Position numbers and translations under genes: made by a program. Positions 13,927 through 19,632 of a DNA stretch of 64,000 bases are shown here, piece after piece; the first letter of the stretch is position 1, and every line of letters begins with the position of its first letter. The notes under the pieces are model-generated. The model had not been told where the DNA came from. It was given only the letters and a program-made list of their open reading frames with translations, and ran no database searches. The stretch comes from Haloglomus salinum. Its GTDB lineage: Archaea > Halobacteriota > Halobacteria > Halobacteriales > Haloarculaceae. The stretch lies in the NCBI RefSeq assembly GCF_024298825.1, contig NZ_CP101153.1, positions 1,612,001-1,676,000 on the forward strand. Direction: 5' to 3'.

Positions 13927-14295
13927 CTACCGCTGGAGCCAGTCGTGCCACTCGTCGAGTTCGACGAGCTCGTTCTCGACGCCGTCCGTTCCGTACTGGT
14001 CGAAGACCGCGTCAACCGCACGAGCAAGCCCCTCTGGGTCGGTGTCCGGGAGCGTCTGCTCGTAGTACAGCAGTATTCCCGCGTGGTCGTGCTCGCGGTG
14101 CAGGCGCTCGAAATCCTTCGCGTTGTTCGTCAGGAGAACTCTGCCGTGCTCGCCACACCACTCCAGCAGTTCGGTGTCGCTCGTGTGTTCACCGAAGCGG
14201 TCCTTGGCCTGGTCGACGTCGTGCCCCCGCTCGTGGAGTAGCCGCTCGAAGACGCGACCGACGTGTTCGTCGAGGAGAAGCCGCGCCGCCGTCAC
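13927..14295 (-). CDS. DUF5615 PIN-like protein (putative toxin)
   Basis: A 122-aa protein of the DUF5615 (Mut7-C/PIN-like) family, which usually pairs with a DUF433 antitoxin. Visible features are the N-terminal acidic motif LLLDEHV, a Cys/Trp-containing middle (LLEWCGEHGRVLLTNNAKDF) with a second Asp, and a third acidic cluster. These resemble the metal-binding acids of PIN ribonucleases. RNase activity is inferred from the family and has not been generally proven. Its start overlaps the stop of the DUF433 gene by four bases (ATGA), so the two are translationally coupled. It is convergent with mutS, only 12 bases from that stop codon. Confidence 0.8.
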   Translation of the reverse strand: MTAARLLLDEHVGRVFERLLHERGHDVDQAKDRFGEHTSDTELLEWCGEHGRVLLTNNAKDFERLHREHDHAGILLYYEQTLPDTDPEGLARAVDAVFDQYGTDGVENELVELDEWHDWLQR

Positions 14296-14567
14296 TGCAC
14301 TGGTTCTTTCGGTTTCAGCGACGATTCCCGGACGCGCTCGAACGCGTCGCTGTTCTCCCGTTCGAACTCCCGCATCTCGTCGATGTGCTCGTAGTAGTAC
14401 GAGAGTGACTCGTAGACCACTGCCAGCGAGAGGTCCAGCTGGTCGGCGACGTACGCGGGGGACTGGCCGCCATCGATCACCCGTGCCGCGATGTGGCGAA
14501 CTCCGACGCGTGTTCCCTCGATGCGGGGTTCGCCGCCGAGGACATCCTCGTCACGAGTGATGCTCAT
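14292..14567 (-). CDS. DUF433 antitoxin-like protein
   Basis: A 91-aa protein of the DUF433 family: EDVLGGEPRIEGTRVGVRHIA followed by a winged-helix-like segment QSPAYVADQLDLSLAVVYESLSYYYEH. DUF433 proteins are thought to be DNA-binding antitoxins of DUF5615 partners, and the order antitoxin then toxin with an ATGA overlap fits. The last 30 residues are charged and may bind the toxin. A well-formed promoter precedes it, so autoregulated leaderless transcription is likely. Confidence 0.8.
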   Translation of the reverse strand: MSITRDEDVLGGEPRIEGTRVGVRHIAARVIDGGQSPAYVADQLDLSLAVVYESLSYYYEHIDEMREFERENSDAFERVRESSLKPKEPVQ

Positions 14568-17639: not shown

Positions 17640-17861
17640 CTACCAGTTCGTCTCGAGTGTCCCGCCCACGGATAGTTAACGGTACGGTCAGAATCGGTCC
17701 GGGCCGTCGCTCCGGCCCTGAGGCAACGCCCGAACTTGCGGCCACATCCGTCACCACCTCGGGGAGCCCGGTGCAGGTGGCACCCGTAGCTGGGGGGTGT
17801 CGAGGGAGTGTCATTCCAGCGTCCGACGAAGCTTGAAGCGGCAGGCACGACGAGGAGGGGC

Positions 17862-18881
17862 ATGGAGGGGCTCGTCGAGGCCGCGCTCGACCACGCCGAG
17901 GCCGAGCGCCGGACGGTCGAGCAGGATGCACCGTCGACGGAGTTCGGCCCGCCGCGAGCGGCAGTCATCGGGTGCGGTGCGACCGGCGGCGAACGGGTCG
18001 GCAGGATTACGTCGGACTACAGAGCGGCAGACGATTCCCGGGAGACCGTCCTGATGTCGGTAGCCCTGTCGGGCGATAGCGACGACCCTCCCCGCGTCCA
18101 CGACATCGACGACGCGCTGGTGTGGGAGGTACCGGCGACCGACGACCCCCCGACACGGGCAGCGTCCACGACGGCCCCACCCGACCGACTGGTGTCGCTC
18201 GTCGAGGCCGCCGATATCCACGTGCTCACCGGGGCGCTGGGTGACTCTACTGCCCGCCGCCTCCTCCGCCGGACGACCGCGCTCGCGGCACGGGAGGACG
18301 TCCCGACGGTCGTCATCCCGACGCTGCCGGCGGGCCCGATTGACTCGCCCGTCCGGAATGCGCTCACCATGCTCCGGTCGACCGCGGACTGCCTGGTTCC
18401 CGTCGACCCGGGGCAACTCCCTCCAGCTCCGGGAGCCGGGTCGGGACAGCCGCCCGTCGCCGCCGTGACCGACCAGCTGGTGTCCGCGGTGCTCGGGTCG
18501 ACGTCCAGTTCGATGGCGTTCCCGGTCGACCTCGCGACGCTTCACGACCTGTTCGCCGCAGGTCACGTCGCAGTCCCGGTCGTCGCGACGCTCGACTACG
18601 ACGCTCCCCTCGGCCGCTCCCCACCTGACCGAGACGCCGTCGAGGCCTCGCTTCGGACCTGCTACGACGGCGCGGGGCTTCCACTCTCGTCGTCCCCGCA
18701 GGGCTGGCTGGCCTACCTCGTCGCGGGCGATGACCTCACGCTGGGCGCGTTCCAGCGCCTGGAACGGACGCTCTCCGAGGTCCTCGTCGACGATGCGGAT
18801 GTCCCCAGCGTCCGGGGTGGCCACATCGAGGCGTCGCGCGAGGGAGTGGGACTGCTCTCCTGCTTCGTCCTCCTCGAGTAG
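17862..18881 (+). CDS. Divergent FtsZ/tubulin-superfamily protein with degenerate GTPase motifs
   Basis: 339 aa. The whole chain follows the FtsZ layout. The first phosphate-binding loop is AAVIGCGATGGERVGRI (34-50), like FtsZ IGVGGAGGN. A DIHVLTGALGDSTARRLL segment (119-135) sits where FtsZ has the tubulin signature GGGTGTG, but most of those glycines are gone. VPTVVIPTLPAGP and NALTMLRSTADCLVPVD match the FtsZ strand and helix before the nucleotide-contact region. FPVDLATLHDLF (220-231) replaces the T7 loop NxDxxD, losing the Asn and the second acid. A C-terminal domain follows (WLAYLVAGDDLTLGAFQRL ... GVGLLSCFVLLE). I infer a pseudo-GTPase relative of FtsZ/CetZ. The ATG at 17862 has a GGAGGGG stretch just before it; an alternative ATG at 17808 adds 18 residues. 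Confidence 0.65.
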   Translation: MEGLVEAALDHAEAERRTVEQDAPSTEFGPPRAAVIGCGATGGERVGRITSDYRAADDSRETVLMSVALSGDSDDPPRVHDIDDALVWEVPATDDPPTRAASTTAPPDRLVSLVEAADIHVLTGALGDSTARRLLRRTTALAAREDVPTVVIPTLPAGPIDSPVRNALTMLRSTADCLVPVDPGQLPPAPGAGSGQPPVAAVTDQLVSAVLGSTSSSMAFPVDLATLHDLFAAGHVAVPVVATLDYDAPLGRSPPDRDAVEASLRTCYDGAGLPLSSSPQGWLAYLVAGDDLTLGAFQRLERTLSEVLVDDADVPSVRGGHIEASREGVGLLSCFVLLE

Positions 18882-18948
18882 CGGCGCCCGGGTATCGGTG
18901 TCGGCGGCCTCTCGAAGAGCGTAACTGGCGTACCCTGCTGGAGTGCGT

Positions 18949-19632
18949 ATGAGCGTTCGCGAGGAGTTCGACGCCTGGGCCGCCGACGGCCGCGACAGGG
19001 GGATGGAGGACCGCCACTGGCACACCGCGAAACACGTCCTGGCACGGATGCCCGTCGAGGAGGGGGAGACGGTGGTCGACCTCGGGACAGGGTCCGGGTA
19101 CGCGCTGCGGGCGCTCCGGGAGACGAAGGGAGCGGGCCGAGGCTACGGGCTCGATGCATCCCCCGAGATGCTGCGGAACGCCCGCTCGTACACCGACGAC
19201 AGTCGGGTCGGTTACGTCCGGGGCGACTTCGATGCGCTCCCGTTCGCGACCGATTCCGTCGACCACGCCTTCTCCATGGAGGCCTTCTACTATGCCTCCG
19301 ACCCGCTCCGGACGCTCCGTGAACTCCGGCGGGTCCTCCGCCCGGGTGGCACGTTCTTCTGTGCGGTGAACTACTACGAGGAGAACGTCCACTCACACGG
19401 CTGGCAGGAGAACATCGCCATCGAGATGACCCGCTGGGACAGACAGGAGTACCGCGAGGCGTTCCGGGAGGCCGGTTTCTTCGTCGCCGAGCAGGACAAC
19501 GTTCCGGACCGGGAGACCGAGATTCCACCCGAGGCGGAGTTCCCGACGGAGGCGTTCGACACGCGTGCGGCGATGGTCGAACGGTACCGCGAACTGGGGA
19601 CCCTGCTGACCGTCGGGGTCGCCCCGGAGTAG
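18949..19632 (+). CDS. Class I SAM-dependent methyltransferase
   Basis: A 227-aa Rossmann methyltransferase. Motif I is VVDLGTGSGYAL, the acidic ribose-binding residue lies in GYGLDASPEML, motif II/III region is GDFDALPFATDSVDHAFSMEAFYY, and the post-motif LRRVLRPGGTFFCAVNYYEEN follows. This pattern is closest to UbiE/SAM-dependent small-molecule methyltransferases; the acceptor is unknown. The ATG at 18949 is preferred over a GTG six bases upstream. It starts 67 bases after the FtsZ-like gene on the same strand, so the two could be cotranscribed. Confidence 0.85.
   Translation: MSVREEFDAWAADGRDRGMEDRHWHTAKHVLARMPVEEGETVVDLGTGSGYALRALRETKGAGRGYGLDASPEMLRNARSYTDDSRVGYVRGDFDALPFATDSVDHAFSMEAFYYASDPLRTLRELRRVLRPGGTFFCAVNYYEENVHSHGWQENIAIEMTRWDRQEYREAFREAGFFVAEQDNVPDRETEIPPEAEFPTEAFDTRAAMVERYRELGTLLTVGVAPE

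Follow-up and report, generated by a model that had tools for sequence, protein, structure and literature searches.

The cell division protein FtsZ2 of haloarchaea (PF00091) has an N-terminal tail, a nucleotide pocket, T7 catalysis and a C-terminal linker with a SepF-binding peptide; archaeal SepF binds the C-terminal peptide of FtsZ (PMC8178401, PMC8187382). An N-terminal amphipathic helix of Odinarchaeota FtsZ1 binds the membrane (PMC12583498). Among the divergent relatives outside the core families, FtsZl1 (Tubulin_2, PF13809) and FtsZl2 both retain the motif GGGTG(S/T)G, and FtsZl1 bears coiled-coil and helical extensions (Makarova and Koonin 2010, PMC2875224). Non-canonical archaeal members of the tubulin superfamily have been described as patchy and divergent (Brown and Duggin 2023, PMC9856176). 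CetZ, likewise a haloarchaeal paralogue within the FtsZ superfamily, retains GGGTGSG and has no N-terminal tail. In plants, the chloroplast protein ARC3 carries a degenerate FtsZ-like domain. ARC3 inhibits assembly of the Z-ring (PMC13335998). Here we analyzed a stretch of 64,000 nucleotides of the Haloglomus salinum genome (the window), which encodes a protein that, judged from its sequence, is a haloarchaeal FtsZ2 paralogue and catalytically dead: it descends from FtsZ2, has lost the nucleotide pocket, T7 and the C-terminal tail, retains the N-terminal tail and belongs to a family of accessory distribution.

The pseudo-FtsZ2 gene encodes 339 amino acids, and its N-terminus, MEGLVEAALDHAEAERR...EFGPPRAAVIGCG, aligned with the first residues of FtsZ2 from the same genome, MQDIVNSALENAEAESR...DFGDPRIVIVGAG. 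A longer frame starting from GTG 17808 was disfavored, since resemblance to the N-terminus of FtsZ2 sets in right at the ATG, which a GGAGG precedes by a few bases. Searches of the protein against Pfam and NCBIfam gave no match even at an E value of 10. The tubulin model of Pfam matched three other proteins of this genome, identified by sequence as canonical FtsZ1, FtsZ2 and one CetZ, all of which are encoded far from the pseudo-FtsZ2 gene. A first-pass annotation had correctly stated that no other division gene lies nearby and that a methyltransferase gene follows in the same direction. The immediate neighbors are this gene and a divergent permease gene, neither with a known link to division. 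The methyltransferase gene adjoins a family member elsewhere only in the relative from Haloglomus halophilum, and its functional link is unproven; the methyltransferases near the members in G313 and G250 proved on inspection to be different ones, and no synteny was counted. A partial match of the window methyltransferase to mad2 (PADLOC, 3e-20) was taken as generic methyltransferase similarity. Further upstream (13927-14567), the window contains two small adjacent minus-strand genes, which resemble a DUF433/DUF5615 toxin-antitoxin pair.

Table 1. Features of the pseudo-FtsZ2 locus (positions within the window)
Feature	Position	Strand	Evidence
GGAGG, Shine-Dalgarno-like, few bases 5' of ATG	17854-17858	+	direct reading
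Pseudo-FtsZ2 coding sequence, 339 aa plus stop (start ATG 17862, stop TAG 18879-18881)	17862-18881	+	ORF, phmmer, N-terminus coincident with FtsZ2 N-terminus
N-terminal tail, residues 1-32, MEGLVEAALDHAEAE...EFGPP, 46% identity to haloarchaeal FtsZ2 tails	17862-17957	+	alignment
T1 remnant GCGATGG (FtsZ2: GAGGAGN)	17970-17990	+	alignment
T4 position GALGDSTA (FtsZ2: GMGGGTGTG), GTP-phosphate loop lost	18231-18254	+	alignment
T7 position PVDLAT (FtsZ2: NLDYAD), both the catalytic Asn and the second Asp missing	18522-18539	+	alignment
Protein end; further linker and C-terminal GLDVIR peptide of FtsZ2 absent	18876-18881	+	alignment
Class I SAM methyltransferase, downstream (Methyltransf_11, 2e-22)	18943-19632	+	

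Homology to FtsZ2 extended over the full length of the protein. With phmmer, it matched FtsZ2 of nearly every haloarchaeon (25-27% identity, E values of ∼1e-8 to 1e-12), and neither the reversed query nor five shuffled queries gave any match. Profile-profile comparison with FtsZ2 of the same genome yielded a probability of 99.0% (E = 3e-18; columns 1-341 against 1-333). A profile of ten family members, searched against PDB chains, retrieved FtsZ structures over positions 32-338, with MjFtsZ1 as the best match (1.1e-15), and all other chains scored at chance level (E of 0.29 and above). The Pfam tubulin model matched none of the ten members even at an E value of 0.1. A further profile (A5) found FtsZ2 proteins at 1e-30 to 1e-39 and, near 1e-20, FtsZ1-like matches starting beyond the tail. 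One match, in G424 (L084), was first taken for a family member and is a canonical FtsZ2. An AlphaFold model, built from only two sequences that are 85% identical, had a pLDDT of 32, too low to be usable, and it is the sequence profiles that support a predicted FtsZ fold over the full length. Descent from FtsZ2 rather than from CetZ is indicated by the FtsZ2-type N-terminal tail, by profiles that score FtsZ2 higher than FtsZ1 and by the position with FtsZ2 in the tree described below.

The elements of the window protein follow each other in the same order as in haloarchaeal FtsZ2, and the motifs singled out in the first-pass annotation (GCGATGGERVG, GALGDSTA and FPVDLATLH) were all present and aligned as claimed. 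Its statement that the first loop is kept held for the GxGxxG of T1 (residues 37-47), but not for the Asn pair, which is gone. At the T4 position (residues 124-131), the tubulin signature GGGTGTG is missing, and FtsZ2 GGGTGTGAA is replaced by GDSTARRLL. At T7, with positions counted backwards from the GG that follows the loop, the alignment reproduced the described changes of Asn to Pro and of the second acid to Thr, with the first Asp unchanged (PxDxxT versus NxDxxD). T2 (NTD), T3, T5 and T6 are also lost.

These losses were common to the family, so that both the descent from FtsZ and the missing GTPase parts were borne out beyond the single gene. GGGTGTG was absent from all 12 full-length members; none thus has the intact tubulin signature that the annotation had named as one observation that would overturn it. 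In the ten members tabulated loop by loop, the T2, T3, T5 and T6 residues were gone throughout, and each had lost at least two of the three T7 residues, while all kept the GxGxxG of T1. The aligned full-length members stop about where the C-terminal linker and GLDVIR end of FtsZ2 begin, and the SepF-binding peptide is absent. The best-kept part of the tabulated members was the N-terminal tail (residues 1-32; 32-48% identical to FtsZ2), followed by the T1 stretch (23-44%) and most other regions (∼5-32%). In the same alignment, none of the filament faces was clearly better conserved than the rest of the protein; the N-terminal tail may therefore be the real contact.

The family thus shares with FtsZ2 its full-length homology, N-terminal tail and element order, but unlike FtsZ2 it lacks the nucleotide pocket, T7 catalysis, C-terminal linker and SepF-binding peptide, is accessory and is unrecognized by Pfam. 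In contrast to FtsZl1 and FtsZl2, it lacks the GGGTG(S/T)G motif, and it has neither the extensions of FtsZl1 nor a match to PF13809. Unlike CetZ, it has the N-terminal tail and lacks GGGTGSG. The non-canonical proteins of Brown and Duggin (PMC9856176), which we likened by description, may overlap with it. ARC3 is of separate origin and has extra domains, and its likeness is one of analogy only. A search of open-access papers found none describing a pseudo-FtsZ2 family, so this small, scattered haloarchaeal family has apparently gone undescribed so far. It would be invisible to the FtsZ surveys examined because these start from PF00091, as did a broad FtsZ/tubulin survey (PMC9871819), or from the GGGTGTG motif.

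Profile searches of haloarchaeal genomes, which had been proposed as a check, together with the reading of one neighborhood, identified members in 13 genomes out of some 550 (12 full length, one partial), spread over no fewer than four host families. Carriers were found in 7/146 genomes of the window's host family, in 4/170 (one partial) of a second and 1/125 of a third, plus one in a fourth; all counts are minimum values, as only few candidates per genome were scored in some searches. The closest relative (83-85% identical) is that of H. halophilum ZY41. In Haloplanus sp. GDY1, the member is located on a 163.8-kb plasmid and annotated only as "hypothetical protein." The further full-length members are in G313, G250, G413, G414, G423, G126, G382, G100 and G114, and the partial one (G511) is a fragment at a contig end. 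On a 189-kb contig of G423 (C2), two identical gene copies (L134 and L138) lie 146 kb apart, perhaps because a circular replicon was assembled beyond its true length. The gene was absent from the two other Haloglomus genomes searched (of four). In G393, permease and methyltransferase are separated by about 10.8 kb of other DNA, and the methyltransferase is inverted; in G366, the neighbors of the site are also rearranged. As most haloarchaea, and two of the four Haloglomus genomes, do without the gene, it is dispensable for division.

In a tree of the 12 members with 27 FtsZ2, 4 FtsZ1 and CetZ, the members formed one clade (support 100/99), which joined FtsZ2 (84/94) and not FtsZ1, although its exact attachment is unsure because the branches are very long. 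The clade mixes members from different host families, which suggests that the gene has been transferred horizontally. Between the two Haloglomus species, which differ by 9 codons in the length of the gene, dN was 0.084 and dS 0.195 (dN/dS 0.43), compared with 0.08 to 0.12 for neighboring genes and 0.03 for FtsZ2. Two other member pairs gave 0.32 and 0.32, dN thus being lower than dS in 3/3 pairs. These ratios indicated that the gene is under purifying selection, yet fast-evolving.

Since the parts for binding and cutting GTP are lost, the family probably regulates FtsZ2 or does a different job, rather than performing division itself. We tentatively favor, at somewhat less than even confidence, a putative pseudo-GTPase that modulates FtsZ2 assembly and does not itself polymerize. 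Such a protein would form no GTP-driven filaments and would not be anchored through SepF, but could still meet FtsZ2 or an FtsZ2 partner via the kept N-terminal tail, one longitudinal face or both. Docked on FtsZ2 and devoid of the T7 Asn and second acid, it would fail to complete the active site of its neighbor, so that this filament end would be capped or stabilized. It might thereby limit, cap or delay FtsZ2 assembly under some condition, comparable to ARC3 in chloroplasts. That the genome retains a canonical FtsZ2 counts for a modulator. The dN/dS ratio, high beside that of FtsZ2, counts against it, as do the dispensability for division and the company of seven of the twelve full-length members, which is one of phosphatase-type or SIMPL genes and not of division genes; moreover, the retained N-terminal tail could serve structure alone.

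This company points to another explanation, which we consider rather unlikely: the FtsZ2 fold may have been put to a new use, as a component, free of nucleotide, of a phosphatase/phosphoesterase neighborhood (cytoplasmic SIMPL/DUF541, dual-specificity phosphatase, metallophosphoesterases, DHH phosphoesterase), with contact to the division machinery gone. Phosphatase, phosphoesterase or SIMPL genes were found within about 10 kb of 7/12 full-length members, several directly adjacent and on the same strand. They encode cytoplasmic SIMPL (G126, G382, G413, G370, G414, G100), a dual-specificity phosphatase (G126, G382, G413, G423, G100), a YfcE-like phosphoesterase (G126, G382, G413, G100), a second metallophosphoesterase (G126, G382, G370, G100) and a DHH phosphoesterase (G370, G413). 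A related dual-specificity phosphatase was encoded, anywhere in the genome, by 7/7 carriers in the window's family versus 53/146 genomes, a comparison that ignores kinship between genomes. The neighboring SIMPL proteins also carry an internal peptide of the GMQDIVDEAL type, like the FtsZ tail. Against repurposing, no such neighbors were present for the window gene, its Haloglomus partner or the members in G313, G250 and G114. Moreover, G415 has genes for SIMPL, a dual-specificity phosphatase and a YfcE-like phosphoesterase in a row (L239:781-2544), and no pseudo-FtsZ was found in this genome; the trio therefore exists on its own. The links between the family and these neighbors are suggestive only.

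The SIMPL proteins with the loop peptide (L132:10557-11204, L133:11084-11722, L129:10907-11503, L182:8641-9357 and L179:8662-9291) form a cytoplasmic SIMPL/DUF541 subfamily. Their peptides (GMQDIVDEAM, GMSSIVDDAL, MSDIVEEAL) resemble the archaeal FtsZ N-terminus, and the other haloarchaeal SIMPL proteins examined had no loop peptide of this kind. Near the G126 member (L132:969-7436), we also observed a Tubulin_2 FtsZ-like protein (PF13809, 6e-10) together with small genes and a ThiF/E1-like protein; this neighborhood thus holds another FtsZ-superfamily system.

Directly upstream of the plasmid-borne gene of Haloplanus sp. GDY1 (L128:5993-8873) are genes for a short Argonaute (pAgo class I, 9e-131) and a partner nuclease (REase, 1.6e-112), both annotated as hypothetical. 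One reading is that the protein is an accessory of a mobile gene pool driven by conflict; it might, for example, be a decoy or a modulator by which FtsZ2 is shielded or manipulated when a virus or plasmid attacks. The patchy spread over host families that the tree mixes, the fast evolution and the differing site among Haloglomus genomes are consistent with this role. However, the Argonaute adjoins one member only, PADLOC gave no match for the protein itself, and no relative was found among viral contigs (IMG/VR) with three pseudo-FtsZ queries and one FtsZ2 query. On balance, a part in such conflicts seems improbable.

A nucleotide might still be bound in an altered pocket, with polymerization, as the kept GxGxxG of T1 could suggest; with the contacts from T2 to T6 lost or deleted in all tabulated members, this is very unlikely. 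A decaying FtsZ2 pseudogene, for which the high dN/dS and the length difference between the two Haloglomus species might speak, is largely refuted by the open frame conserved in 12 full-length members, by dN values that stay under dS in each of the three pairs tested and by a single clade sharing the losses, and is scarcely credible.

Returning to the modulator of FtsZ2 assembly, a bolder version, which we regard as a long shot, is that a horizontally spread, GTPase-dead FtsZ2 family controls archaeal division through display of the N-terminal tail of FtsZ. The MxDIVxxAL-like peptide in FtsZ1, FtsZ2, the pseudo-FtsZs and the loops of neighboring cytoplasmic SIMPL proteins would then mark a common binding partner. 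If the family acts on FtsZ2, its members would be, to our knowledge, the first archaeal GTPase-dead FtsZ regulators, and the little-studied N-terminal tail of FtsZ would be marked as a functional element.
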